Shown here: positions 1,986 through 38,481 of the stretch, piece after piece
How the letters are laid out: every line of letters starts with the position of its first letter
Position numbering within the stretch: position 1 is the first letter of the stretch
Source: a virus
IMG/VR virus record: IMGVR_UViG_3300047334_000141
Location: 1-40,428 of that record
Length of the DNA stretch: 40,428 nt
Direction: 5' to 3' (one strand)
Made by a program: the position numbers and the translations under genes
The notes under the pieces: model-generated
The model's database searches: none
What the model was told of the DNA's origin: nothing
Seen by the model: the letters and a program-made list of their open reading frames with translations, nothing else

Positions 1986-4900
1986 TTAACTTCCTATAGC
2001 TACCCAATTAGTATCTTTGACATTGGACACATAATCAAAAGAGTTTAATGTTGTGTTTGTAATGTTCAAAGACGCCTCACCTTGAACCTTGTAAGATTTT
2101 TTAAAAGGTATCTCTAAATTAATCGTTCCTTTTTTATTCTCAATTCTGCCCCATTGAATGAAAACATCATTGATTTTAATATATGAATGATTAGGTTTAT
2201 CTATATTATAATCTACAGATAAATTAACAACTGTTAAAAATGACCAGGCTGAATAGAATTTATCTAAAATTACACCTAATACAAAAGTATTTGAGTTTGA
2301 GTCGATTACGTCATTTAAAGGCTTCGATACTATCTCACTACCATTATAGTAGAGAATACTGTTTGGTTGCACTTTAACTGATTTTGTTTTTGATGTAAAT
2401 GCAATTTCATATTTATTTGTTTCGGTATTACATTTAATCAAATTCAAAGGAGACTTGATTTTAATTTGTTTACCATTATATTCTAACGAACCTGTCCACA
2501 TTGTTTGAATTCTTTTTATATTAGAACTTAATTCTACTTTTTTAGCTCCCAAGAATTTTTGTCCAATAAAATCACTAAATGAAGAAGGTAATTCATGTGC
2601 TAAAGTAGATGTGTCTGGTTGTGGAGCAATGTAAACGTTTGGAGCATAAACAACTTTAATGAAATCCCACATTGATTTAAACAAACCATTTACGGGGTCA
2701 CAGACACCCAATACGATAGTATAAGGCATACTGTAAAGGTCATTAGGGTCACCAATAATAGCTCCTGGGCCAAAACTACCAGCAGTTTGTACCAATTCAT
2801 TTTGACCTTCATTATAAATAGACGTTGTTAAATAATTAGCTTGAACAGCAGCAGTAGTTAAAGGAACTGATTGACTTCCTCCAACATTTACTGGTGTAAA
2901 ATTAGTTCCCAATGTTTGGTTATAAGTTGCCAACAAATACTGACCTGGAGTCATTGCAACTTCTGTACCAGCAGGAATATATCCATGTCTTCCATCTCCA
3001 AAGAAAATGTTAATTTGAGTTGCCATGGTAACAAGGCATGGACCGCTTTGCGGTTGTACTTGTTCTAAAGTAACAACAGCATAGCCTTGTAAAGGCAGCG
3101 GGCTATCCGGTGCGGGCGGCAACGCAGTATAATTTGCAACAACTTTAAAATCATTAGAATATGGTGGTGGATAAAACGGTGGTGGATTATAAAAACCACT
3201 TGAATCAATTGTTCCAAAAGAAGTATCATCTATAGACCAACTACTTGCTTGAACTGGTCCAATCAAAACATCATCAATATAAAGTTCTGCCACAAATTGT
3301 TGTCCATTACTTGGCACATCAATTGTAATACTTTCTGGTGAAACACGCAGCATATAACTTCCTTGATGAACTGTTGGACTTTGATATACTGGAGTAATTC
3401 TTGCTGCATTATTTACAATATTAATCGAAGCAGCAGCAGTTAAAGGAGTGCTTTGATAAGTATAAGTTGCTTGTGCTAATACTGGATTTATAGATGGTAC
3501 ATTATCAGGTGATTCATAATAACCTGTATTATCAATTAAACCATATATAGAATTACCACCATAAATGTTTTGAATATACCAAAGTGCGCTATTAGTAACA
3601 TCACTTTGATTTCCTAAAGGTTCGGTCAAAGTTGCTGTTAATTGCAATGATGAACCAATGTTAACAGTTGAACTTAGTGGTGTAACTGTAAGTTTTGGAG
3701 GCGGAAGACAAGTTGAAGGAATAACCAAATTAATATTTGTATTAGATACCAAACTTGAATTGCTAAGACTATATAACTGAATAGCATATGAAGCAGGAGA
3801 TTTTGAAATACTGATAGGAATAATTACAGACAATGTATAGTTTACACCATCAACATTTACAGGATTGCCATTATTAGTAAATACTGTACCATTTGAGACA
3901 AGTCTAACTCTTGAATCTGAAGGAAAATTAGTACCAGAAACAGTTACTGCTTGACCAGGGCATGCTTGTGTAACAGAAGAAATTGTTGGGCTTGGAGTTT
4001 TTGGTGCAACGACAGGCGCTGGAGTTGGACTCGGTGTAGGTGACGGAGAAGGTGTTGGAGTTGGAGCAGGAGTAGCTGGAACTAAAGCCAGCGAGCCAAT
4101 AGTTCCAGTAATTGAGTTACCAGCAAAACCAGAATAATTTACAGTAGCACCTTCAATTTGAAGACTAATATTGTTTAGCGAATCTAACGGATAAAATACA
4201 AATCTCATTGTATTATACGAAGTTGAACTATTTGAATTATTATTAGTTGTATCACCTTTAATAGTTACATTATCATATACAATATCTGAAGTTGGCATCC
4301 ATGGCGGTAAAGAACTGAAAAAATTAGGTTCTGGAATAACTGTTTGAATTAAATCAGTATTATTATAAACTTCAATTACAGCAGGATTATAAGCAAAATA
4401 ATAACCGGAATTATTTTGATTAGTTGTAGCATAATAACCAACATCGCTGCCACTTGGAAATACTGGCGCAGATGTTAATTGTGTTGGAGTAGCACTAAAA
4501 TGAGTTCCTTGATTAACAATTAATACACCAGCTTGTTTTTGAGTTCCTACAATATTAGATGAACTACTAAATACAAAATAAAATCCATAAGCATTAGGGG
4601 CAGTATCACCACCTCCGGTCCATTCACTTGTTAAGACTACAACAATACAGCGTTTAGCAGCTTTTGTATCATATGCTTCGGCCCAATATACATCGCCACC
4701 TACAGCAGCAGCAACATAATCATTAGTATAACTCAAAGAATTCATAGATTCAGGAGCGCCAGATGGTTGTGTTAAACTTAACTTACCAGTTCCAGCAGAA
4801 AATGCTGCGGTTCTCCATGCGGGATTTACAGTTTCAACAGCTTTAGATAACAAATCGACATTATGTGATACAACGCCTGTTGCACTTGTGTTTGGAACAA

Positions 4901-6719: not shown

Positions 6720-9700
6720 TTAATAAGAGATATCTTTTATAGTATCAATAAATTTTGTTTCTTTACCAAATACTTTATATGGGAAGTATGTATCTGACTC
6801 TAGTAATTTTACTACATATTCGCTGTAACTTGGTTGCACATAATTTAAAACAGCTTGGTAAATTGCAATATCAGTGGGCTGAAAACCAATATATTGTGCT
6901 GGTAATAAAGATGTAATATATCCATAGAAAAATAAATTAGAAGTATTAAAACCATATGGATATATTAAAACTTTCATATTTGGCAATAAATTACTTTGAA
7001 TGATAGAGTTTCCAATTACAGTAACGCCATCTAATGAATATAAGTTACCAGAATTATCAATATTATTTAATAATACAGAATTACCATAAGCATCAGTTTG
7101 AAAGCTTAAAATACCATTTATCTGATATATTATAGAACTTGCACTAATAATTACGTTAGCCAAACCAACACTTGTTTCAATAAATGCACTTGCTGTTAAA
7201 CTAGCTGTATCAATTTCATCTATGTTGATATAACCTAAATATTCAAGATTTGGTTGTGGGTTAGCTGGTCCAGGCAAAGTATTTGTAGTTGTATTAGAAA
7301 ATAAATTTGCAATTCCATAATCTTGGTCAATTGGTTCTGAATTAAATGCATATGGAATTACAATTTCAAAGAAATTTTTCCTCCAATGAACATTTTGTAA
7401 TGGTTTTAAAACATTATAAGCACCACTAATTGGGTCAGTTAGTGTTACAGAATAAGTTTTTCCATTACCACTTAAACGAGAACGCTGCCAAGACTTGTTT
7501 TTATTTAATATAAAATCAGTATCTTTACCAACTTTAATTGTAAATCCTGAAGCAAAATAAATTTCTAAAATAGATTCATTAACAATAGTATCAACAGGAA
7601 AAGTTGATAAATCAAATTGAATATAAGCTATTTTTTCAGGAGTTAAATTATAATATCCTTGTTCAATTTCTAAAGTATTAAGGTCTTCATAAACACCAGC
7701 AGGGGATTGAATTGGAGAACGACGATATCTTTGTGGAGGACCTGGCTCTCCATTTTTATCTGGCAATGCAGCAATAGCATTTTGACTTGGGTCAGTCAAA
7801 AATACAGGCTGATTTATTGAACTTGATATAGGAGTTGTTCTTACGTAATAATTTCCTGAATTATATCTGCTTTGGGGATTGTTACCATGTTGAATAGAAG
7901 TGCCTGAAGCAGAATAAGTATAAACATCGTTATATTGATTTACTGCTTGGTCAAGTCCAATATGTGGGTACTTAAATTGATTACCAGCAATAAAAAAAAC
8001 ATCTCCACTTTGAACTGTATCAGGATTCATTCCATCAACCCAATTAGCATATCCTCCATCTTCAATTTCTAATGTTTTTTTGCGAACTGCACCTGCTGCC
8101 GAAGCATAAGTAAAGTTTGCAATTAAACGAGTTGGTTTATCAACGATGGTGTTTGCATTAGTTCCATAAAAAACTAATCCAGCATATGTATCACCTTCCA
8201 TTTGAAGAGCAATACCATTGTTATTAGGACGTGTAATATTAACAACTCCACCATCATTAATATAATAAAAATTCATATTTGGTAAAATAGATAAAGACAT
8301 AAAACCATACTTTGGATTAAAGAAATTCAAAGTTGTTCCAAGTCTTGCGGCACTTACAGGAAGTGTTTCAGTAATAGGTGCTGTCAATGTATCAATTGCA
8401 CTACTATCGCTATAAGAAGAAATCTTACTTCCAGCAACATTGATATAATCATTATAATTTAAAAAGTATCCAGTAAATGATGGTGAAATATATGTTTGAT
8501 TATATGTTGCTAAATCTGGGTCTTGTCCAGATTGACTTAAAGCCAATCCAGTAAACAAACTCATTATACCACGTTGAAGCTGTTGACCAGACGGTGTATT
8601 CAAAATAATATCAGAGAATGCTAATGCTGTTTGAGAAGCTGTAGATGATGAAGTTGTTTGAATATTAAAAGTCCAACTTGCAGTTAAAGTTTGTTGATTA
8701 CCTGCTGGTAGACCTTGAACAATTACAACATAATTTTCATTAATATATGTACCAAGTGTAATATCAGGAGTATAAGTAACCACATCAGCATTATAATTAT
8801 CTGATGCTTGAAACACTGGCGAACCACTGCGATAGTTAGTTACGGGAATACGAGTATCCCAAATGGTGTAAAGAACAGGTCCAGTAATAACAATTTGTTG
8901 TCCTAATTGACCATCTAATTGTCCAGGTGCAATAACACTATAATCTGAAATTATTGCAATAGGATTATTATTATCATCTAACAATACAAAGTTGCCATAA
9001 TCAAATTCAAAATATCTAATACCTTGTGTACTAGAAATAATTCTATCTAATTTTCCAGCTAATCTATATTGATTAGTTCCAACTTGTCCAAGTGTTCCAG
9101 ATAAACTTGAAGTATAAGTTCCAAATTGCAAAGCTTGAATAACAAATATTCCTGGCGAAGAAAGACTTGATGAACCATTTACAGCTTGTTGAGTTTTTAA
9201 ATTTGAAGCATAAACAGTTTTATTAAATGTGATTTCACCACCAACCATAGTTGTGATATATTCATATCCTGTTACAGTTTCTAATTTAGCAAAAGAAGCT
9301 TGAGCCAAAGCTGTTGGAGGCAAATTATTATTGGCTGTTGCATATGGGCTATCAATTGGTTGCAATGCAGCACTTGTGTCTGCATCATAATAAGAAGCTA
9401 CAGAAAAAGGGCCATTAAACTGTGCAGAATCAGGGAAATTACCATTTACAGTTGCTTCTGTGGTTGTAACTAATCCATAAGAATATAAAATAAAATCATA
9501 TTCATTAGTTGGAAATTTAGTTGCAATATTATTACCATTATTTAAATAAGAAATATTTCTCAAATCTAATTGAATAATGATAGGAGGAAGTGCAGGAGTT
9601 GTATTAGGTAATTGCTTATTAGCAACTAAAGCAGTTCCTTGCCAAGTTGTGTTTCCATAAATATCCGTAGAGCCATTTTGATATGGTACAGCAGAAGTGC

Positions 9701-21396: not shown

Positions 21397-22347
21397 TTAT
21401 TTTAATACAGTATTCCAATTTAAAGGTGTAACCAATACTTGTGTAGTAGACAGTTTTCCATCATCTCCAGGATATGCAGAATTAGCATTTTGTGGTGCTG
21501 AAGACCAATTATTTTTTAAATATTGAAGTATTTGAGCCGTACTTCCGACTTTATAAAATTGAAAAATTGAATTAGCATATTGTCGAGGAGTGTTACCAGG
21601 GTAATTTACATAATTAACTTGTGCTTTACCATTTGAACTGGTTAGACCATTGGTAATTTGGTTCTTTTGAGTTTGAGTAGAATTAAAATTACTACTAGTT
21701 CCGTTATTAGAATATTTCCCTTTAGTCATTACATCAAAAACAATAGTGTATTTGTAAGTATTTTCCTGAGCTTGTCTTTCAAAAGAAAAATCTTTCCATA
21801 CTCCTGAATAAGTTCTTCCCTCAATAGTTAAAACACACGGAGTTGGATTAGAAGCAGTTGCACTTCCACCAGTACTTTGATTATTAAAAACGGCATCCAT
21901 TCTTTGAATTTCTAAATAATATGCTGAACCAGTAGTTCCTCTTAATTCTAAATTTTGCATCATATATCCAAAATCTTGCAATACAATGCCTGTCAAAGTA
22001 TCAATTTGAACTAAACGTTTGCTCTGATTATCAATTAAATGGTTAGGGTCAATGTGTCCTTGAAATTTAAACCCATTACAAACTAATGTAAATCTAAGAG
22101 CAGGTTTTGTCTGTTTGGCAGACTGCTCCTGAAACATATTATTAATGTCATAATTTTTATAAGGATTTTTATTTTGTAATTGACTTCCATATGGATAAAT
22201 ATCAGTAGAAGTAAAAACGGTCGAATTATTGGATGTGGTTGGACTAATATTTTGTATATTAGACTTTTGTTTAACACCGTTAACTTGTCCAGTTGCGGTT
22301 TTTTTATTCTTATTTTTATTAATAATTGGTGGTGTTGTATTTGCCAT
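21397..22347 (-). CDS. Baseplate hub-associated / tube-initiator candidate
   Basis: 316 residues; a GGGAGGT ribosome-binding site lies inside the end of the tape measure gene, 11 bases before the ATG. Residues 1-60 are polar and probably disordered. Residues 80-215 form a compact beta-rich region (LRFTLVCNGFKFQGHI, then VLQDFGYMMQNLELRGTTG, then KDFSFERQAQENTYKYTIVFDVM), a layout like tube-fold proteins that cap the tail tube at the baseplate. The C-terminal part is Asn/Ser-rich. The position directly after the tape measure and before the hub is where T4-, Mu- and SPO1-like phages keep distal tube or hub adaptor proteins. The assignment rests on position and fold impression only. Confidence 0.6.
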   Translation of the reverse strand: MANTTPPIINKNKNKKTATGQVNGVKQKSNIQNISPTTSNNSTVFTSTDIYPYGSQLQNKNPYKNYDINNMFQEQSAKQTKPALRFTLVCNGFKFQGHIDPNHLIDNQSKRLVQIDTLTGIVLQDFGYMMQNLELRGTTGSAYYLEIQRMDAVFNNQSTGGSATASNPTPCVLTIEGRTYSGVWKDFSFERQAQENTYKYTIVFDVMTKGKYSNNGTSSNFNSTQTQKNQITNGLTSSNGKAQVNYVNYPGNTPRQYANSIFQFYKVGSTAQILQYLKNNWSSAPQNANSAYPGDDGKLSTTQVLVTPLNWNTVLK

Positions 22348-22350
22348 GAA

Positions 22351-25056
22351 TTACCAACCTCCCATCGAACCAGCATTCGCAATTGCCGCAACAACAGAAT
22401 TAAATGGATTATTAAGTTGGTTACCAATATTTTGAGTATATTGTTCCATTTGACCCTTGATTCGTGCTTCATTTGCAGCCATTGTTTGCATGAATTTAGC
22501 CATTGCTTTTTTAAGTTCTGCTGGACTTGTATTGTTAACAGTATCAATTTTTTGATTAACAGTAATTGTCTGATTAATGTTTACTCCACCTTTGCCACCG
22601 CCAGATGTTACTGGAGCAGCTTTCATCGCAGCACTTGCTGTACTTTCTCTTGCATTCAAATTTAATGTTTGAGCAGTTACATACATTGTATTAGTTGATT
22701 GTTTAACAGAAGCTAATGCAGCAGATTTTGGAACGCCACTTTTTGCTTCAGCATCATGACCTTTAAAAATATTGCCAATAGCACCGATTGCAGCACCACC
22801 CAGACCTGCTATTGGCAATGCTGCTTTAGCAATCGTTCCACCAACAGCACGAACAGTCCCAGCAGCGCCAGTAGCACCAACAGCCCCAGCAGCACGAGTT
22901 GCTATTCCAAATCCACCGGCGGCAACAGCACCCATGGCAGCACCACCAACACCAATTGCCGCACCAGCAGCACCAACAGCGCGAGCACCATTAGCAAGTA
23001 CTCCACCAGCAGCCATTATACCGCCAGCACCTGCTGCTGCGGCTCTCGCCGCTGCGCTACCAACACCCATTGCAGCATTACGAATTCCACCGGCAGCAGA
23101 ACCTACAACGGCACCTACAGCAGCACCAGTGGCACCTACAGCCCCTTTGGCTTTATTTAAAATATTACCGGCAGCATCTTTTATACCTTTTGCACCATGG
23201 TCTTCGTAAAACTGTTCTCCTATTGCAAGACCACCACCAATAGTAGAACCAGCAACCGCACCAAGTGCAGTTCCTACAATAGGTACAACACTACCAATAG
23301 CAGCCCCAGCAGCCGCGCCAGCACCCATGCCAGCGAGAACTCCACCACCGCGACCCATTTTCTTTTGAGCAGCCGCTTTTTCAGCAGGTGTTCTTGCTTC
23401 TATATTTTCACCTATACCACTAACTACATTACCTAAAGCATTTGTAGCCATCATAACACCAGTTTTTGCAAATGCTCCAACAGGACCAGCAGCAGGTACA
23501 AATTTACCAAGTTTATCACCAAAAAATGTTAATGCATTACCACTAGCCTCTAATCCTTGAGCAACAGCACCTTTTGTATTACCGTGGGCAGCATCATATA
23601 TAGCCATTCCACCATGATAAGCAACTTCAGCGCCACCAACAAATCTTGCTGCACCGGCTGCTGCACCTAATAATTTACCAGCAGTTCCACCAAGAACAGT
23701 AGCAGTTCCTTTGCCAATTGCGCGCAAAACAGGAGCGCCCATTTTACCAACGGCACCAGCAATTGGTCCAGCAACTTTTCCTACTGCATTAGAAGTTTTA
23801 CTAATAATATTAGAAGCACCATTAGCAAATTTGCCAGCATTTTCTGTAAAACCACTAAATTTTTCGGCAATATTGCCAGCAAAATCCTTAGCAGATTCAA
23901 CAGAACTACCAACTCTTTCCGCTATATTGCCAGCTAAATTTCTAGCAGAACTAACAGCTTTACTTAATCCTGTTTTTTCATAACTATCAGCAGCAAAACC
24001 ACGAACTCTTTCCATGATATTATCTGAAGTGTTACGAACAAAAGCACCAGCTTTATTTAAACCTCCTTTGATTTTACCCAGAAGACCTTCGCCTTCTTCA
24101 GAATTATTAAAATTATTTTTTAATTTATTTAAATTATCTCCCAAAAATTTTTTGCCTTTATTAAAAGTATCACCTAAACCACCAAAATTTCTTGCATCTT
24201 TTGCAACTTCTTCAGCGGCACCACCGCCACCTTTTAATAAATTCAGAAAGCCTTTAAAACCATTATTAAGAGCCCCTAATAATTGAGCAGCAACACCACC
24301 AAATTTAGCAGCTAATAAAGCTCCTAAAGCAGTTCCTAATGTTCCTAACATTTTCGATAATCCTGATAACCAATCGGATTTTCCACCATCATCAGAACCA
24401 TTTTTTTGAGCAGCACCAATACCTGTTGGCGAACCCTTCATGTGTTTAAGTAACTCTAAGATAGTCTTAATATCTTTGTTAATATCATCAAGAGTATCAT
24501 TCATTTTATCCCACCATGGTTTTGTTCCACCATCTTTAGAACTTCCCATGTTTTGTTTATTACTTGAATTTGCTTTTGCTTCACCAGCAAAAGTATCTGT
24601 AATTTTTTGAGCAGGATTTAATGCGGTAGCAGTTTGTGTTGGTGCTCCATTTAATGCAGTATTTAAATTTTTATATGTTGAATTAGAATTAATACGACGT
24701 GCAATTCCCAAATCTTGAAAGCTTTTAGCAGGAGAATTATTAATTCTATCTTGAATTATTGGTTTTGAATTAACAATTGTAGCTAAAGAACTTCCTACTA
24801 ATTTAGCATTTGAACCAGAGTTATCATTTTCATCAACCAATTCTTGTTGTGGTGTTCCATTGCTAATAACAGCGGGAACATTACTTTTCATTACAGCGGG
24901 GCGAGAATGTGAAATAGGCCCACTTGTAGGTGAGCCGTTTGAAGTCGCTGCTGATTCATTTACTTTGTTGGCTGCTGCGCGTATTTGCGCTCTTTTTGCT
25001 CTCGCGTTTGCGTTTCTAGCAGCCTTTTGTTCTTCAGTAAGTGGTTTTCTTGCCAT
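22351..25056 (-). CDS. Tape measure protein
   Basis: 901 residues, starting 2 bases after the stop of the frameshifted chaperone. Residues 1-30 are highly basic and Ala-rich. Residues 180-210 form an amphipathic helix, and 220-270 and 290-440 are Gly/Ala-rich helices. Residues about 565-765 are extraordinarily Gly/Ala-rich with GxxxG/AxxxG spacing, like the membrane-active glycine-zipper segments of other tape measures. The C-terminal 830-901 contains a Thr/Val/Asn strand-like segment and a coiled helix. The gene lies between the chaperone pair and the baseplate hub, the canonical place. By the family rule of about 0.15 nm per residue, the tail would be roughly 135 nm, which is an inference. 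Its Shine-Dalgarno sequence is weak (GAAAGAA), so translation is probably coupled to gpGT. Confidence 0.92.
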   Translation of the reverse strand: MARKPLTEEQKAARNANARAKRAQIRAAANKVNESAATSNGSPTSGPISHSRPAVMKSNVPAVISNGTPQQELVDENDNSGSNAKLVGSSLATIVNSKPIIQDRINNSPAKSFQDLGIARRINSNSTYKNLNTALNGAPTQTATALNPAQKITDTFAGEAKANSSNKQNMGSSKDGGTKPWWDKMNDTLDDINKDIKTILELLKHMKGSPTGIGAAQKNGSDDGGKSDWLSGLSKMLGTLGTALGALLAAKFGGVAAQLLGALNNGFKGFLNLLKGGGGAAEEVAKDARNFGGLGDTFNKGKKFLGDNLNKLKNNFNNSEEGEGLLGKIKGGLNKAGAFVRNTSDNIMERVRGFAADSYEKTGLSKAVSSARNLAGNIAERVGSSVESAKDFAGNIAEKFSGFTENAGKFANGASNIISKTSNAVGKVAGPIAGAVGKMGAPVLRAIGKGTATVLGGTAGKLLGAAAGAARFVGGAEVAYHGGMAIYDAAHGNTKGAVAQGLEASGNALTFFGDKLGKFVPAAGPVGAFAKTGVMMATNALGNVVSGIGENIEARTPAEKAAAQKKMGRGGGVLAGMGAGAAAGAAIGSVVPIVGTALGAVAGSTIGGGLAIGEQFYEDHGAKGIKDAAGNILNKAKGAVGATGAAVGAVVGSAAGGIRNAAMGVGSAAARAAAAGAGGIMAAGGVLANGARAVGAAGAAIGVGGAAMGAVAAGGFGIATRAAGAVGATGAAGTVRAVGGTIAKAALPIAGLGGAAIGAIGNIFKGHDAEAKSGVPKSAALASVKQSTNTMYVTAQTLNLNARESTASAAMKAAPVTSGGGKGGVNINQTITVNQKIDTVNNTSPAELKKAMAKFMQTMAANEARIKGQMEQYTQNIGNQLNNPFNSVVAAIANAGSMGGW

Positions 25057-25058
25057 TG

Positions 25059-25861
25059 TTATGTTCTTTCAACCGAAAGCGGAAATGCATCAGGATTATG
25101 ATATTCATTAATTTCACCATCAGTTGTGGTAGCAATAGTCTGAATATTTGTAAGCCTTTCCGTTTTTTCTCTAACAAGTGATTTGAATTTATCTTCATCC
25201 AAATCAGTGTAGACACGACCTTCTTCATCTTGAATTTCTTTAAGACCGACCATTTCAACTTCTTGACTAGTACCTTTTTCCTTTTTATCCATTTCTTCAT
25301 AGATATCAGGACGAATAAGAAATACTAACAATTTCATAAACTCGTCTTTTTCTTCAAATTCAATTTTTTTTCTACGTTCAGCATGCAAGTAATGCCACTG
25401 AATGAAGGCGGGGTGAAGTTTAATTACTTCATCATAAGTTTTATGCAGGTCTTTGCAAACCGTGTCTAAAACTACGCTCCACGGCTGCTCAACGATTTTT
25501 TTACGTCGTCTTCAACCTGCTTACTAATACTCTTATCCAACTTCTCATATTCATCATATAGAGCATTGATAACTGTATAATGTAATTTTGCAATTACTCC
25601 ATTAAGCACTTTGGCAATTTCTTCTGGAGTAGGATTATTAACATCTACAAAATTTTGCTTGCCATTGATAGCAGTAATTGCGCGAGCTAGAATCTCACAC
25701 TTTGTGCTAAGAAATGCGGCAGAAGACTCTGTAGTACCCGCTGCACTAAGGGCGTCCGTCAACCTTCTTGTATCTAATACAGTTAAGCTGAATTGAACGC
25801 CCAAAATTTCTACAGTCTCATTAATGAAACCAATATCAAATAATTTTTCTAAGCTAGTCAT
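25059..25861 (-). CDS. gpGT-like tail-assembly chaperone, -1 frameshift product
   Basis: Predicted fusion of about 267 residues. The first 122 codons are read in the gpG frame up to the in-frame heptamer A_AAA_AAA at 25502-25496. After a -1 slip, the frame continues without a stop (first codons ATC GTT GAG CAG) for 145 residues to the TAA at 25061-25059. The downstream part is helical and strongly charged (for example HAERRKKIEFEEKDEF and DEDKFKSLVREKTERL), as in lambda gpT-type extensions. No convincing independent ATG with a ribosome-binding site precedes the downstream frame; its first possible start would be a TTG at 25388. In lambda and many other tailed phages the fusion and gpG coat the tape measure and recruit tube subunits at a fixed ratio. 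The extension stops 2 bases before the tape measure gene. Confidence 0.9.
25458..25502 (-). promoter_or_regulatory. Programmed -1 ribosomal frameshift signal
   Basis: On the minus strand the gpG frame reads GTA AAA AAA TCG, so the heptamer A_AAA_AAA (25502-25496) fits the X_XXY_YYZ rule exactly. Nine bases downstream, AGCCGTG (25486-25480) can pair with CACGGTT (25464-25458), a 7-pair stem with one G-U and a 15-base loop that contains the gpG stop codon. The stem is modest and may be only a weak stimulator. The -1 frame is open across the entire join. Confidence 0.88.
25472..25861 (-). CDS. gpG-like tail-assembly chaperone
   Basis: 129 residues; GGGAG lies 6 bases before the ATG. The protein is mostly helical: residues 1-30 give a short strand-containing head (TVEILGVQFSLTVLDTRRL), followed by helices ending in EYEKLDKSISKQVEDDVKK. 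It lies between tail tube and tape measure, the standard place for the gpG part of the chaperone pair. The slippery A_AAA_AAA site sits at codons 121-122, 7 codons before the TAG stop. A stem-loop terminator upstream (25874-25900) separates it from the very strongly expressed tube gene, which fits a catalytic rather than structural protein. I infer that it is absent from finished virions, as in lambda. Confidence 0.88.
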   Translation of the reverse strand: MTSLEKLFDIGFINETVEILGVQFSLTVLDTRRLTDALSAAGTTESSAAFLSTKCEILARAITAINGKQNFVDVNNPTPEEIAKVLNGVIAKLHYTVINALYDEYEKLDKSISKQVEDDVKKSLSSRGA

Positions 25862-25873
25862 TTTGTTCTCCCT

Positions 25874-25900
25874 AAAAAGAGGGTAATAAATTTACCCTCT
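25874..25900 (-). terminator. Intrinsic terminator between tail tube and chaperone genes
   Basis: The minus strand reads AGAGGGTAA, a 5-base loop, then TTACCCTCT, a perfect 9-pair stem, immediately followed by TTTT and then AGG. The stem plus U-tract fits a Rho-independent terminator. It lies 23 bases after the tail tube stop and 12 bases before the chaperone start. The chaperone's own Shine-Dalgarno sequence lies just beyond the U-tract. I infer partial termination, lowering chaperone and tape measure mRNA relative to sheath and tube. Confidence 0.8.
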
Positions 25901-25923
25901 GATTATAGAACAATTTTAAATTA

Positions 25924-26643
25924 TTACTGAATTACCGTTTGAGTTAATGAAGTTGGTGCTGTAACTAATGACTGTGAATCTCCAGTAGTTGCTCCAACAA
26001 CAAAACTATTAAGATTTGCAATACTAGCTTGATTGATTTGGGTGTTACGATATGTGAAGCTAACGCTTTCCATAACAGTCTTTGCACCTGCATCAAATGC
26101 AGTTTGATAACCAGTAATCCAGCATTCCAAGTAAGTCTTAACAGTGATACCATTTACTTCTGGGGCCGGATTCATTGTGTGAACTGCAATATTAATAGGC
26201 CATTGAATATCCGCGATAGTGGTTATAACTGCGCCTCTTGTTCCAGAACCAGTACCGTTTACAGTGGCACCCTGTACTGGACCAAATTTGTCGGCAGGCC
26301 AATAATTATAAAGGTCATATGTGTCTACGCCTGGCAGTAATGCTTGATTATATTGAAATGCATCAAACAAACTATCTTTGAAGATTTCAAGGCGTCTTAC
26401 ATCAATTTGCCCAGACCATGTAGATGGCACAAATTCAACCGGATAAATATCTCCAATTTCATATTGCGGAAGAACTTCGCGTGCTTCTCTTGGCGCGAAT
26501 TGTTGAATCAATCCGATAGCGATATTTCCGATATACATTGCTACGAAATCGGCAGATACAACTTTACGACCTTTAGGAGGAACTGATAAGTGAGTAATTT
26601 CTTGGGTTTTTACACCGTATTGATATGAAGGGTCAAAGGGCAT
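25924..26643 (-). CDS. Tail tube protein
   Basis: 239 residues, preceded by the best ribosome-binding site in the window (AGGAGGT). It follows the sheath gene after 21 bases, the invariant sheath-tube order of contractile tails. The sequence is beta-rich with no membrane segment. Features include a VSADFVAMYIGNIAIGLIQQF stretch near residue 30, an IYPVEFVPSTWSGQIDVRRLEIFKDSLFDAF region, and a late YLECWITGYQ...VMESVSFTYRNT strand pair. The tube protein forms stacked hexamer rings through which DNA passes. The length is larger than T4 gp19 (163 residues), suggesting surface loops. Termination at 25874-25900 follows directly, consistent with high expression of sheath plus tube. Confidence 0.88.
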   Translation of the reverse strand: MPFDPSYQYGVKTQEITHLSVPPKGRKVVSADFVAMYIGNIAIGLIQQFAPREAREVLPQYEIGDIYPVEFVPSTWSGQIDVRRLEIFKDSLFDAFQYNQALLPGVDTYDLYNYWPADKFGPVQGATVNGTGSGTRGAVITTIADIQWPINIAVHTMNPAPEVNGITVKTYLECWITGYQTAFDAGAKTVMESVSFTYRNTQINQASIANLNSFVVGATTGDSQSLVTAPTSLTQTVIQ

Positions 26644-29477: not shown

Positions 29478-30266
29478 TTAAGTATTGTAATCATAATCAT
29501 CACTTGTATGATAACCTGCGTAACCTTCACGTTCTTCTAAATCATAACCCTCATCACCAGGAACTAAATATTTACCATTTCTATAAATTAATGGCGATTG
29601 ATATTGTTGATTTTGATGCTCTGTAGCTACTTTAGCAAATCTACCTTTATTTCTAATATTATATTTTTTTTGACCACCAGGTTTATAAACATTGTAAAAA
29701 CCTGCATTATTTTTAGCTATACTTAATAATTTTCTTGCTTCTGTTGTTACATAAGCTTCTACAGAAATTTTTAATTCTTGTTCAACACGTTCGTAAATAT
29801 GATAACCTGCAATTCCAGGATGATACCATGAAGCAAATGAAGGTTTTTTAGATTTTTTTCTAGGGTCTAATTGATTATCACCACAGGTTCTATATATAAT
29901 GCCGCCACCAGGTATACGCATTTTAACACGCTTATTAAGCAAAGCATCTCGCATACTAAAACCACTAAAACCACGATTTAATATTCCAAAATAAGGTTTT
30001 GTAGAAGTTATAACAACATTATTATCTTCACCAACAGGTTCTTGAATAAAAGAACGAAGTAATTGACCTGTTCCAAAACCATGATTGAAAGTTTGACCTA
30101 CTTTAGCCGTAATCAAATCTAAAGCCATATCTGATATGACTTTTCTTATTTTTGAATAAACATTTTCTAAAGTTTGAGAATCAATATTATCCTTAACTAA
30201 TTCCATCTCTTCTTCTGTAAGAACATCTGGAATATGAAACTCTAACCTATCATCAGTAGAAGCCAT
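29478..30266 (-). CDS. HK97 gp10-like head-tail joining / tail completion protein
   Basis: 262 residues; the ATG overlaps the previous stop (TAATG). Residues 45-110 form a helix-strand region (helix SDMALDLITAKVGQTFNHGFG, then VVITSTKPYFGILNRGFSGF). Residues 145-175 carry YHPGIAGYHIYERVEQEL, matching the 'hPG..a..f...a' signature of HK97 gp10-like proteins at the head-tail junction. The C-terminal 60 residues are charged and Tyr/Gly-rich. The gene sits between the four-cysteine virion protein and the tail-terminator candidate, the expected place for a completion protein. The frame continues past the TAA stop. Confidence 0.72.
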   Translation of the reverse strand: MASTDDRLEFHIPDVLTEEEMELVKDNIDSQTLENVYSKIRKVISDMALDLITAKVGQTFNHGFGTGQLLRSFIQEPVGEDNNVVITSTKPYFGILNRGFSGFSMRDALLNKRVKMRIPGGGIIYRTCGDNQLDPRKKSKKPSFASWYHPGIAGYHIYERVEQELKISVEAYVTTEARKLLSIAKNNAGFYNVYKPGGQKKYNIRNKGRFAKVATEHQNQQYQSPLIYRNGKYLVPGDEGYDLEEREGYAGYHTSDDYDYNT

Positions 30267-31012
30267 TAATAATTTTGTCCATCGTGTGTATTAAAAAAAT
30301 AATTTTTAATAATAATAGAGGCCGGGAAGTTTTGCCCTGGCATTGAACCGCCAACACCAATTGGAGGAGTAATTACAAGAGTTGCATTAAAGTCTGTGAA
30401 TTCTTGACCATTAATAAATGGAACTGGAACATAATATTTAACGTCGTTACGGTCAATACGCGAAAGTGTAAGCTCTTGATGATGTTTACGACCTTGATGT
30501 TCTACTGCTTCCGAACTATGAATCTCATAACGTTCATTAGCGAATGATACTATAATGTCTTTTTCAGACATAATTGGATTCGTAATAATAGTCCAACCAG
30601 AAGGGCGCTGAACCACTGTTAATCCAGCTTGTTCAATAAGAATATCACTACGGCCAGGAACAAAACTCATTTTTAATTCAATTGCAGGTTCATATCCGCC
30701 TTGAAAACCTGTTCCAAAACAGTTTGTGCATTTTGAAACAGTACATTGGTCATCATTTTCACTAAAATAAATACAACGTTGACCTGTTGTAAGACGACGA
30801 AGCCATACAACCTTTTCACCAGCCAATTGCAAACCTTCTGCATAATATCCAGGCAACGCTCCTAGTAAATTGTGAAGAGCATCGCGGTCTTGAACAGACA
30901 ATTTACCTTCTGTAGAATTTATAAATTCTTGATAATTTGGAATCGTTCTGTATCTAATTGGTTCTGGAATATAAAATCCAGCGCCATCGTCACTATTGTT
31001 TGGATAAGGCAT
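30266..31012 (-). CDS. Neck/virion protein with four-cysteine metal-binding-like motif
   Basis: 248 residues. The start overlaps the end of the homing endonuclease gene by 20 bases and has only a poor GGTAATA leader, suggesting coupling. Residues 80-98 hold Cys80, Cys90, Cys95 and Cys98 (a CTVSKCTNCFGTGF core followed by GGY), a zinc-ribbon or DnaJ-like spacing. The remainder is beta-rich (FVPGRSDILIEQAGLTVV and VKYYVPVPFINGQEFTDFNATL). Its neighbours are a neck candidate upstream and the gp10-like completion protein downstream. I infer a head-tail connector or stopper-type virion protein in which the metal site stabilises a loop. The enzyme class and exact position in the virion cannot be read from sequence. 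Confidence 0.65.
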   Translation of the reverse strand: MPYPNNSDDGAGFYIPEPIRYRTIPNYQEFINSTEGKLSVQDRDALHNLLGALPGYYAEGLQLAGEKVVWLRRLTTGQRCIYFSENDDQCTVSKCTNCFGTGFQGGYEPAIELKMSFVPGRSDILIEQAGLTVVQRPSGWTIITNPIMSEKDIIVSFANERYEIHSSEAVEHQGRKHHQELTLSRIDRNDVKYYVPVPFINGQEFTDFNATLVITPPIGVGGSMPGQNFPASIIIKNYFFNTHDGQNY

Positions 31013-31715
31013 TATTATTACCAGCCTTTTTATTTAACCAGTATCGTTTGTGTGACTCACTTATCTTTCTTTTTGTTTCTTCAGGTAATTTTTTACCTGT
31101 TTGACTAATTTTACTGGTAATTGCTATCTTAGCTTTATGTTCTTCAGATAATTTTTTGCCTAATTTTGCTTTTGCAATATTTTCGCAATGTTTTTTAGAA
31201 AAAATTTTACCTTTGTTAGATAAAGATATTTTAAGCTTTGTTTCTTCTGAAAGTTTTTTGCCAATTTTATGAGCGTTTGTTTTTTCTATTTCTTCTTTTG
31301 TTTTAACTCTTCCAGTATTTGCCACTTTTATTTTTAATATTACTTCTTCTGATGGTTTTTTACCAAACCAATAATTATTAGCTCCACGCATTTTTTCTTT
31401 AGTTTCTTCAGTATGTTTTAAACCAAGATTATTTGCGGCAACAAGTCTAATATTATATTCTGGTTTAATAGTATCCATCCAGTATTGTTCGTGTTCAATT
31501 AATTTTTCAGAAGATTTAATCTCTTCAAGAACATTAAAAATAAAATTTTCTATACCATGTTTATTAAAAGAAGCTTGAAGATGTGCATTTTTATGAACAT
31601 TTCTATTTAGAGAAGATAAATGACGTTTCCATCTTTTATCTAATTCTACAGAACTTCCCACATATTTTTTACCATTTACATTATTAGTTATGCAGTAAAT
31701 ACCTTGTTTTTTCAT
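30993..31715 (-). CDS. GIY-YIG homing endonuclease with NUMOD3 repeats
   Basis: 240 residues. The N-terminal nuclease module has GIY at 5-7, YVG at 18-20, Arg28, Glu76 (EHEQYW) and Asn88, the I-TevI-type catalytic set. Residues 93-230 contain repeated KxSEE(T/H)KxKI-type helices with an intervening 'GKK' turn, the NUMOD3 DNA-binding motif of SegA-E and other free-standing homing enzymes. It interrupts an otherwise continuous virion operon and is preceded by a 107-base gap. Its TAG lies 20 bases inside the next gene's coding sequence. There is no clear Shine-Dalgarno sequence. It presumably cleaves the allele lacking it near this junction to spread by repair. No intron ends are visible, so it looks free-standing. 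Confidence 0.93.
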   Translation of the reverse strand: MKKQGIYCITNNVNGKKYVGSSVELDKRWKRHLSSLNRNVHKNAHLQASFNKHGIENFIFNVLEEIKSSEKLIEHEQYWMDTIKPEYNIRLVAANNLGLKHTEETKEKMRGANNYWFGKKPSEEVILKIKVANTGRVKTKEEIEKTNAHKIGKKLSEETKLKISLSNKGKIFSKKHCENIAKAKLGKKLSEEHKAKIAITSKISQTGKKLPEETKRKISESHKRYWLNKKAGNNNALSKQ

Positions 31716-35305: not shown

Positions 35306-35734
35306 TTAAAATAGAATTTGTGAACCTACTACTCTTGATAATTCCGCTTGAACTTCTTGTTGAGTCAACACTGTTATATCTCCTGGTAAAGAATTTAAAA
35401 ATATTGACTCAGTTGTTTTGATTAACATTTCTCCTGCATAAATGTCTCCCGCAGGATAAACAATTGCAAAATATGGAGTATTTAAATATACACCATATTT
35501 TGGATAAGGTTGACCATTTATAAAATTAGTTGTGCTTACAGGCATTCTATAATATATACCATATTGAAATCCAGTTGAAACATTATTACTAATAGTTGGC
35601 GAATTTACATTGTATATATAAACTTGTGGAGCTAACGGTGGACAATATCCAGATTCATCATACCATTTATCAAAAGCAATATTATTGCTATCAATTAATC
35701 CTAAAGAAATAATATTAAAAGATGGTGTAGACAT
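35306..35734 (-). CDS. Stand-alone copy of the lectin protein's C-terminal domain
   Basis: 142 residues; the ATG overlaps the stop of the 915-residue gene (TAATG). It aligns by eye with residues about 783-915 of that protein: both contain an (I)xxLGLxxS start, a PxxPxVYIY / PIIIPIGYVY segment, then (G)xYYR(M/V)PV(S/D)TT, PKY, an (F)xIVYP / STFVYP strand, GxMLxK and a closing SLP-x-DI-x-L-x-x-(Q)-V-x-A-x-L motif. I infer a tandem duplication giving a free copy of this beta-rich domain, perhaps a cap, trimerisation unit or separately docked decoration. There is no catalytic motif. Confidence 0.75.
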   Translation of the reverse strand: MSTPSFNIISLGLIDSNNIAFDKWYDESGYCPPLAPQVYIYNVNSPTISNNVSTGFQYGIYYRMPVSTTNFINGQPYPKYGVYLNTPYFAIVYPAGDIYAGEMLIKTTESIFLNSLPGDITVLTQQEVQAELSRVVGSQILF

Positions 35735-38481
35735 TAAAACACGAATATTTCATGAGCATAAGTAATCAAGTCTGCAACAACTTGAGTTCCCGAAAGTTGA
35801 ATTATATCATTAGGTAATGAACCTGTATAAGATGATGATTTTACCAACATCAATCCATTATATTCACTTGTTGAAGGATAAACAAAAGTACTAATTGGAT
35901 AAGTAAAATTATTAAAATATTTTGGAATAATTTGATTATCAACTACCATTGTAGTATCTACAGGTACTCTATAATAATTTCCTGGCGCAAAAGCCGAAGT
36001 ACTTCCGTAAACATAACCAATTGGTATAATAATTGGAGCATTAGGAGTTGGACAAATTCTAGTTTGTTGTAATATATTTAAATAATCTAGTCTTAAAGAT
36101 TCTTCTAACCCAAGAGGAACTATTTGAAAATTAGAAATTCCACTAGAAGGAGCATCAATTAATTTTCCAGCAACAACATTTAAAATATTGTAATCTAATA
36201 ATTGAGGAATATAATCAAGCTGATTAGTATATGTTATATATGCATATCCTAACTCAAACATAGTAACTGGATTAAATTGAGAAGCATAATCAAATAAAGT
36301 AACTAATTTAATATAACCGTTAAATAATTGCGTTCCATCATAAAAAGCTCCAATAGATGAATTTGTTTGAACCATTGAAGAATCTTGTGATGGGTTACTT
36401 GTATGATAACTAAATGCTTGTTGGTTATATATTTGATTTCCATCTACATAAATATTTAAGTTATACGTAACATTAGTAGAATTAAATCCTGCTGCATTTC
36501 CAGAAGCTTGATAATAACCTTTTGTATATTGAAAAGCTATAAAATGGTCTTGTCCATCCATTACATTTGAACCAACAATATTAAAACTAACTGGTCCTGA
36601 ATAATTTGAAGAATTTTCTTGATAAAATCCCAAATTACCAAAATCATCAACATACATACCTGCATTATTAATATAAACAAGCATTCCACCGCCTGTATTT
36701 GGAGCTATTGCTCTCATCCAAAAAGTAATCCAACCACTAAGAAAATAAACACCTAATTCATTCCCTGAACCAGGATAATTCACTCTATTAGAAGAACTAC
36801 CCGTATAAACTATTTGATTACCAATATCCACAAATCCCGTTAAAGGTGTTGAGTTAAATTCATAAGCGGAATAAAATTCTGCTGATTGTGCCGATGTACC
36901 AAAAGCAGTTCCAGTTGCACCAAGAGTAACTGTATTTATTACATTTGCATTGTAATTATTACCAGAAATATCATAAGCAATGGTTCCATTTGTTTCTTGC
37001 AATGGATAAAAAGCAATGGGGTCTAAATTATTAACATACAATATATATTGCTTTGAAGGTGAAGTAGGTATAAAATTATTTAAGGAATGCAAATATATAG
37101 TTGAATCTGATAATGCAGTTTCGTATAGAGCAACATATTCTAAATTACCATTAAAAGTATCTGGTCTTTGAGGGTAATTATCTCCTATTACAAATCCAGT
37201 TGTGCCATTGTAACCAGTGATAGCTCCTGTATATGTTAATGAATTATCCAAAATTCCATTAACATATATTTTCATAGTTGCGCCATCATAAGTGCAAGCA
37301 ACATAATATTTTGTATTTAAATTAAAAACAGTGTTAGAGGTAACATTTTGTGCATTTGAGAAACCAACATAAAATGTAATAGTTCCATTTGGATTAATAT
37401 TAATTTGAAAACCATAAGTAGTAGAACCAGCCAAGTAACCAACACCAAGTAATCCTACTAAACCATTTGGGTAAGCTTTTAATTTTATAAACCATTCAAT
37501 TGTTAAATCTGATGTTGGTTGAATATAAGAGCTTTGAACTGATGTAACTAATTTAGAAGCAGAATAAGCACCACCTGGCATACTTAAAGATGTTGTTGTA
37601 TCACCTTCAGAAGTTACTAATTCTGTTGAACCTAAAGTTAAAGAAGAACCTACTGTTCCATTTAAACCATAAGGACCATAATCAATCGCAAATGGATATC
37701 CAATTGGGTCACCTAACGGCCAAAACAATAAAGGATTTGATTGTTGAACTAATTGTTCATAATTTGAATTTAAATAACCTAAAGCAATTTTAGAATGTGC
37801 GGCAATAGTAGTTGAAGATAAAGCATAATTATAAATAGCAGTATCTTGAATACTTCCAGGTGCTGAATTAGGACCACCAACAATGTTTCCGTTTCCGATA
37901 GCAAAGCCATGAATACCATCATATCCACCAATAGGACCTGAATAAGCAGTGCTATTATCTAATACACCATCAATATAAATTTTTATTGTAGACCCATCAA
38001 AAGTTCCAGCAATATGATAAGTCTGACCTGATATCAAATTTGTGTTTGAAGTTATGTATGCAGACGTATATGCAGACGTATAATCTACATAAAATTGAAT
38101 TTGACCATTTGGTAATTGGGCAATAGCAGGTCCATTAGTTGAATGGTTTGCACCAATGGAAACTATATTTGGCCCACCACTTGGTGAAAATCCATTAGGT
38201 TGATAAACGAATTCCAAAGTTATATATTGAGTTAATTCAAGTCTTGAATCAAATACAGATTGAACAAGTTTGTTTACATTATTAGGATTACCAGGCATTG
38301 ATAATGATGTACGACTATCAGAACCCAAAATAGGAGTGCTACCCAAAGTAAAAGCAGAACCAACAGTACCATTCAAGCCAAATGAACCATAATCGGTAAC
38401 TTGACTAGAACCTACTGATTCATTTAATTGCCAATAAAGCACTGGATTAGCAGTCAAAACTGCTGCACTATATACGGACAT
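35734..38481 (-). CDS. Three-fold LamG/concanavalin A-like lectin virion protein
   Basis: 915 residues; AGGAG lies 6 bases before the ATG. Two strongly similar LamG-like domains are at about 9-236 and 243-468: each has YWQLNE/FWPLGD near its start, a YGxxGLNGTVGSxxTLGS repeat, a FDGSTIKIYIDGVLDNS / YDGATMKIYVNGILDNS core and a final IYNYALS / LYETALS turn. A more diverged third copy lies at about 480-735 (FYPLQETNG, NIYVDGNQIY). Residues 783-915 are the domain duplicated in the next gene. LamG/laminin-G folds bind glycans, so I infer host-surface or particle decoration. It sits upstream of the neck genes, away from the baseplate fibre cluster. Only the edge of a promoter or terminator region separates it from the 617-residue gene. 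Confidence 0.82.
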   Translation of the reverse strand: MSVYSAAVLTANPVLYWQLNESVGSSQVTDYGSFGLNGTVGSAFTLGSTPILGSDSRTSLSMPGNPNNVNKLVQSVFDSRLELTQYITLEFVYQPNGFSPSGGPNIVSIGANHSTNGPAIAQLPNGQIQFYVDYTSAYTSAYITSNTNLISGQTYHIAGTFDGSTIKIYIDGVLDNSTAYSGPIGGYDGIHGFAIGNGNIVGGPNSAPGSIQDTAIYNYALSSTTIAAHSKIALGYLNSNYEQLVQQSNPLLFWPLGDPIGYPFAIDYGPYGLNGTVGSSLTLGSTELVTSEGDTTTSLSMPGGAYSASKLVTSVQSSYIQPTSDLTIEWFIKLKAYPNGLVGLLGVGYLAGSTTYGFQININPNGTITFYVGFSNAQNVTSNTVFNLNTKYYVACTYDGATMKIYVNGILDNSLTYTGAITGYNGTTGFVIGDNYPQRPDTFNGNLEYVALYETALSDSTIYLHSLNNFIPTSPSKQYILYVNNLDPIAFYPLQETNGTIAYDISGNNYNANVINTVTLGATGTAFGTSAQSAEFYSAYEFNSTPLTGFVDIGNQIVYTGSSSNRVNYPGSGNELGVYFLSGWITFWMRAIAPNTGGGMLVYINNAGMYVDDFGNLGFYQENSSNYSGPVSFNIVGSNVMDGQDHFIAFQYTKGYYQASGNAAGFNSTNVTYNLNIYVDGNQIYNQQAFSYHTSNPSQDSSMVQTNSSIGAFYDGTQLFNGYIKLVTLFDYASQFNPVTMFELGYAYITYTNQLDYIPQLLDYNILNVVAGKLIDAPSSGISNFQIVPLGLEESLRLDYLNILQQTRICPTPNAPIIIPIGYVYGSTSAFAPGNYYRVPVDTTMVVDNQIIPKYFNNFTYPISTFVYPSTSEYNGLMLVKSSSYTGSLPNDIIQLSGTQVVADLITYAHEIFVF

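Follow-up and report, generated by a model that had tools for sequence, protein, structure and literature searches.

A probable lambda G/GT-type -1 frameshift at an A_AAA_AAA heptamer in the tail module of an uncultured contractile-tailed phage

Organization of the Tail Module

The window analyzed here is a 40,428-base IMG/VR virus record (IMGVR_UViG_3300047334_000141) with its main genes on the minus strand. The genes of its tail module are ordered as sheath, probable tube, G, T, and probable tape measure, which places the overlapping G/T pair between tube and tape measure (Table 1). Elsewhere, the window encodes a sheath-initiator-like protein (E = 2e-7, slightly below the Pfam cut-off) and a baseplate wedge protein (phrog_6, E = 5e-22). 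These two proteins and the tail sheath therefore identify the window, as judged from homology, as belonging to an uncultured contractile-tailed phage. The role of the tube gene is assigned from gene order because its product matches a single PHROG, phrog_985 'virion structural protein' (E = 2e-12), which belongs to the head and packaging category. No Pfam match was found for the probable tape measure protein.

Table 1. Features of the G/T locus and its flanking tail genes (window coordinates)
Feature	Coordinates	Strand	Basis or remark
Tail sheath protein, 631 aa	26665..28560	-	phrog_2839, E = 6e-41; Pfam Phage_sheath_1 above cut-off
Probable tail tube protein, 239 aa, directly upstream of G	25924..26643	-	position after sheath
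G, tail assembly chaperone, 129 aa, zero-frame product	25472..25861	-	complete ORF and homology
T frame (-1), 147 codons from slip	25059..25502	-	open frame, conserved protein
Slippery heptamer A_AAA_AAA (zero frame GTA AAA AAA TCG)	25496..25502	-	in phase
Stem 1, 5' arm, 9 nt past heptamer	25480..25486	-	AGCCGTG
Zero-frame stop TAG of G, seven codons past heptamer	25472..25474	-	
Candidate stem 2, 5' arm, in stem 1 loop	25467..25473	-	AGTTTTA
Stem 1, 3' arm	25458..25464	-	CACGGTT
Candidate stem 2, 3' arm	25437..25443	-	TAAAACT
TTG-started 109-aa ORF, product of start-codon gene finding	25059..25388	-	starts within conserved T stretch
Probable tape measure protein, 901 aa, directly downstream	22351..25056	-	phrog_1535 tail length tape measure, E = 6.6e-4; position

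Scans with the sheath, tube, G, or T sequences identified four related virus contigs (L001, L002, L003, and L005), three of which are distinct in sequence: L002 and L003 are identical across the 11,500 bases compared. L001 is truncated inside G. The sheath, tube, G, and T scans of virus contigs each returned only subsets of these four relatives, a tube scan of genome contigs yielded no confirmed relative, and searching for the slip region by an exact pattern derived from these sequences recovered three of the known contigs and nothing new.

The module has several further features. In the gap between the tube gene and G, a -10-like motif, CTATAATY, is present in all four distinct sequences (window 25878-25908, minus strand; L001 4739-4746; L002 12646-12653; L005 9049-9056), beside hairpins of unrelated sequence; across the whole window, the motif is not enriched (5 found against 6.4 expected). 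Whole-gap minimum free energies (MFE) are -19.9 in the window, -23.4 in L002, -13.3 in L005, and -6.5 in L001, and the hairpin of the window is followed by T5, yet is absent from the list of terminator-like sites. The gap is possibly a promoter or attenuation site. Between the sheath and tube genes, L005 has a GIY-YIG/NUMOD3 homing-endonuclease-like gene (7755-8354) and L001 a NUMOD3 relative (3384-3989); in the window and L002, this gap is too short for such a gene. Another homing-endonuclease-like gene lies inside the structural module of the window (30993-31715, minus strand; phrog_314, E = 3e-36), overlapping the next gene by 20 bases. A 915-aa protein with concanavalin-like/laminin G domains (35734-38481, minus strand; Pfam E = 1e-40) is possibly a decoration or adhesion protein. 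At the other end of the tape measure gene, the +1 frame continues for 89 codons beyond the stop, and a TTG-started 154-aa ORF in another frame (22083-22547, minus strand) overlaps the end of this gene and the start of the next. Following the sheath gene in L001 (2071-2972) are three tandem, similar small ORFs of 106, 95, and 85 aa, which by eye have in common the motif Q.DID.G.K....CAIA; the one that was searched had no Pfam match.

The Slippery Heptamer Opens a Long -1 Frame

G begins at an ATG with the sequence AGGGAG 6 nt ahead of it and ends at a TAG. Its codons 120-122, GTA AAA AAA, contain the A AAA AAA run in X_XXY_YYZ phase, and seven sense codons (TCG TTG AGC AGC CGT GGA GCG) separate the heptamer from the stop, confirming an in-phase site that the first-pass annotation had placed at this distance from the end of G. 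The same annotation had described the -1 frame as open from the slip to the edge of the tape measure gene. This frame, KKIVEQPWSVVLD..., is indeed open for 147 codons, up to a TAA at 25061-25059, which leaves two bases between it and the probable tape measure gene (ATG at 25056). T codons 1-38 contain no ATG, GTG, or TTG, the earliest candidate start being the TTG of codon 39 (25388); the 36 start-free codons reported earlier correspond to T codons 3-38. G and the fusion, GT, would have one common start, with the slip site joining G to T; the expected fusion measures 122 + 145 = 267 aa, and the T frame forms its C-terminal part. The 109-aa ORF that start-codon annotation had been expected to call is present and is, on sequence comparison, probably not an independent gene. 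An 88-aa zero-frame ORF inside T (25300-25034) was considered and rejected as a chance occurrence; the corresponding frame in L005 is full of stops.

Canonical heptamers were counted in phase (X_XXY_YYZ with Y = A or T and Z not G) across the 23 main minus-strand ORFs of the window, which span 37,143 nt. Among the 86 found, the site in G opens 147 codons of -1 frame, and the next longest opens 43. A_AAA_AAA by itself is not special in the window because two more in-phase AAAAAAA sites, at 29859 and 29670, open just 3 codons of -1 frame before a stop. The run of seven A's is rarer in the window than in shuffled sequence (20 occurrences vs. a mean of 63). Where other genes end with a long open -1 frame, that frame leads into a gene having its own ATG.

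Relatives Retain the Heptamer and the -1 Frame

Identity to the window is 72% for the G orthologue of L005 and 41% for that of L002; for T, it is 64% over residues 3-130 in L005 and 37% over residues 1-70 in L002. The site in L005 reads GTA AAA AAA TCT, with a TAG seven codons past the heptamer. In L002 and L003, it reads GTA AAA AAC TAA, a canonical A_AAA_AAC directly before the stop, at the codon matching the site in the window. Both distinct relatives covering the site (L005, and L002 = L003) therefore keep an in-phase canonical heptamer together with the -1 frame, the outcome that the first-pass annotation had looked for in related phages. The arrangement it had set against a frameshift, in which the heptamer is missing and T has its own ATG and ribosome-binding site, was found in neither L005 nor L002 = L003, with ribosome-binding sites judged by eye.

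In all three sequences, T begins at the slip with KK[I/L]xxxPWS, its start falling at an equivalent residue, and is conserved from the slip codon onward, ahead of the first ATG (codon 56 in the window and in L005, codon 29 in L002). Non-ATG start codons precede this ATG in the window (TTG, codon 39) and in L002 (TTG, codon 14).

Synonymous differences between the window and L005, counted at codons encoding the same residue and omitting G codons 120-129, which overlap T, are few early in T. They affect 4 of 26 codons in T codons 1-30, compared with 72 of 143 elsewhere (45 of 84 in G codons 1-119 and 27 of 59 from T codon 31 on; Fisher p = 0.001). Double coding is limited to about the first ten T codons, and T codons 11-30 show 3 synonymous differences in 19. 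This low synonymous change suggests an RNA element in the early part of T; it suggests rather than proves one because the T protein is also most conserved across codons 1-30.

A Candidate RNA Structure Follows the Heptamer

A 7-pair stem 9 bases downstream of the heptamer had been proposed as a stimulator of slipping, and we find it at this spacing (stem 1, AGCCGTG/CACGGTT). One of its pairs, G-U in the window, is A-U in L005. Together with candidate stem 2, it would form an H-type pseudoknot of 7 + 7 bp, with a spacer of 9 and loops of 6, 2, and 14, in both the window and L005. In a simple scan for such pseudoknots, scored by stacking energies with a flat penalty and a length penalty, this structure was equalled in 5 of 300 shuffles for the window and 3 of 300 for L005, and by 97 of 3910 natural coding windows of the record (2.5%); the score at the G site ranks second among the 86 heptamers.

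The 75 nt past the heptamer differ at six positions between the window and L005, one of them in stem 1 and the others unpaired in the pseudoknot. Part of this region can instead form an alternative hairpin, of -11.1 kcal/mol for the window and -10.4 for L005, which has stem 2 in common with the pseudoknot and excludes stem 1. The changes between the two sequences do not separate pseudoknot from hairpin because the differing position 43 is paired in the hairpin, where an A-U becomes a G-U; moreover, the window and L005 are nearly identical here and are therefore not independent tests of structure. Stem 1 and the pseudoknot are absent from L002, whose best pseudoknot is weak, with 52 of 300 shuffles scoring as well. 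Plain folding energy gives no support for structure because the MFE of the 75 nt is not unusual, with 210 of 1309 coding windows folding as low. From these comparisons, some stimulating RNA structure downstream is likely and its pseudoknot form possible, for which the predicted pairing provides moderate evidence (see also Discussion).

G Is Related to Tail Assembly Chaperones

At the default limit, neither G, T, nor the small ORF matched any PHROG. When the limit was relaxed, two tail assembly chaperone families, 2792 (E = 1.2e-4) and 2992 (E = 4.5e-4), were matched by G of L005, and these two are also the best matches of the G from the window (both E = 0.011); G of L002 matches neither, even at the lax limit. 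The chaperone of Mycobacterium phage Breeniome belongs to both families. In hhalign, four G sequences (one partial), combined into a profile and aligned with one built from four Bixzunavirus-like G sequences, gave E = 4.1e-6 at 87% probability. This homology links G to tail assembly chaperones already known. The first-pass proposal that the heptamer joins gpG and gpGT chaperones, in our terms G to T to give GT, is thus supported by the relatives, the homology of G, and the gene order.

T aligned with the T domains of named phages at only 1% probability (E = 0.054 over 24 columns, from small profiles of 3 and 4 sequences), and no PHROG or Pfam family could be credibly assigned to it, the matches being weak and unrelated. 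The best of these, to a Pfam nuclear-receptor-protein model (E = 1.7e-4, below cut-off), comes from T of L002. Searches of solved structures and NCBIfam gave matches judged unrelated, the best being a plant protein (E = 0.0039) over 56 residues of G. AlphaFold models are poor, with mean pLDDT of 51 for G and 56 for T, in which only about residues 11-40 come near 80.

Comparison with Known Systems

Among named phages, the closest counterparts are Bixzunavirus-like: Mycobacterium phages Breeniome and Settecandela, Gordonia phage Pupper, and Rhodococcus phage Finch, which have a contractile-tail module and a related G. In searches of named phages, neither the DNA of the region nor the tube protein found a match; the sheath did, that of Breeniome being related to the sheath of the window (31% over 43% of the protein). 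Breeniome, Settecandela, and Finch have the order sheath, two to three small genes, chaperone (a two-piece join), and tape measure; for Pupper, the join and the tape measure are seen in the stretch compared, which stops short of any sheath. In all four, the annotated chaperone ends in the -1 frame. Their heptamer differs, however, being G_GGA_AAA placed 3, 3, 3, and 1 sense codons before the G stop (Breeniome, Pupper, Settecandela, and Finch, respectively), their G has a long N-terminal extension, and their T did not align with ours by profile.

The lambda G and G-T tail assembly chaperones were reportedly described by Levin in 1993 and by Xu in 2004, 2013, and 2014, and the lambda heptamer is G_GGA_AAG. 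The locus resembles that of lambda in its order of tail protein, G, T, and tape measure, in size (lambda G has 140 aa and the T feature 144 aa), and in the -1 slip, here a predicted one, near the end of G that joins it to T, as outlined for lambda in review PMC5009743. It differs in having A_AAA_AAA, a contractile tail, and a possible downstream structure, and the likeness drawn here is one of layout and size. According to this review, a -1 slip makes gpG and gpGT in lambda and many dsDNA tailed phages, at 30:1; G binds the tape measure, and T binds the tail subunit. A literature search on frameshifting and pseudoknots in myovirus tail assembly chaperones found only this review.

For 13 of 18 Paenibacillus larvae phages, PMC6256562 tentatively proposes AAAAAAA for the equivalent G/G-T pair. 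These are different phages, of 37-56 kb, their site is likewise a tentative prediction, and the likeness drawn here is one of heptamer and gene pair. In the literature on slip efficiency, A_AAA_AAA appears among the consensus heptamers, one seven-A cassette shifting frame at 10% and a phage chaperone cassette at 7% (PMC3711429), and is described as much less shift-prone in E. coli than A_AAA_AAG (PMC5009743). The lower slipping in E. coli counts against a frameshift at the site in G.

Discussion

We consider it very probable that the G/T pair is an ordinary case of lambda G/GT-type programmed -1 frameshifting at A_AAA_AAA, as the sequence comparisons above point to. Counting against this reading are the lack of a profile or family match for T, the weak PHROG match of G in the window and its absence in L002, the poor AlphaFold models, and the small number of distinct sequences, three, in which the site occurs. 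Most ribosomes would read G through to its TAG and yield the 129-aa chaperone, and a minority would slip back by one base on the heptamer and continue into T, and the product would be a fusion some 267 aa long. As in lambda, the tape measure protein would be the binding partner of G, the T portion of the fusion would bring in the tail tube subunit, and the slip would set the G:GT ratio; structure just downstream, a stem or perhaps a pseudoknot, may raise the slip rate. What we infer here is that slipping takes place, how often it does, and that it is ribosomal, together with the binding roles and the influence of RNA structure.

Both routes to a shifted product at a run of A's would yield an identical protein, since A runs can also slip in transcription: RNA polymerase would add or drop A's in the A7 tract, which is present in the window and in L005, and part of the mRNA would encode the fusion directly. 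L002 and L003, however, carry six A's and then a C in X_XXY_YYZ phase, which suits a tandem tRNA slip, and A_AAA_AAC at the codon of A_AAA_AAA is what selection for such a slip predicts. In addition, PMC3711429 places A runs longer than seven among transcriptional sites and A_AAA_AAA among ribosomal ones; we therefore hold transcriptional slippage to be improbable. Having only six A's in L002 also counts against an assembly or sequencing indel that split one gene, an explanation suggested by the position of the frame change in a homopolymer, where errors are common. The -1 transition recurs at the matching residue in three other IMG/VR records (L005 and the mutually identical L002 and L003), with stops that differ (a TAG after 7 codons vs. 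an immediate TAA) and, in L002, with another heptamer as well, and we regard such an error as scarcely credible.

T could also be an independent gene translated from an internal start, either the TTG at 25388 or the ATG of codon 56, with no fusion formed, and a TTG-started ORF of 109 aa does exist. This TTG is, however, not a start codon in L005 and is preceded by conserved codons, L002 has its first TTG and ATG at codons 14 and 29 instead, and by eye no ribosome-binding site lies ahead of TTG-39 or ATG-56. An independent T is thus highly improbable.

Returning to the programmed frameshift, a more specific proposal for its control is a tentative and rather doubtful one. A compact H-type pseudoknot, with stem 2 starting inside the G stop codon and competing with the hairpin that uses the same strand, might drive the slip, and its folding might set the G:GT ratio in this phage group; L002 would then manage without it through A_AAA_AAC placed against the stop.

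For annotators, G and T should be joined in such genomes, and the TTG-started 109-aa gene should not be called. The pairing of A_AAA_AAA with A_AAA_AAC at one codon provides clean comparative evidence favoring ribosomal over transcriptional slipping. No general view is changed by this reading, which would extend a well-established decoding mechanism to contractile-tailed phages of a lineage that has been little sampled.
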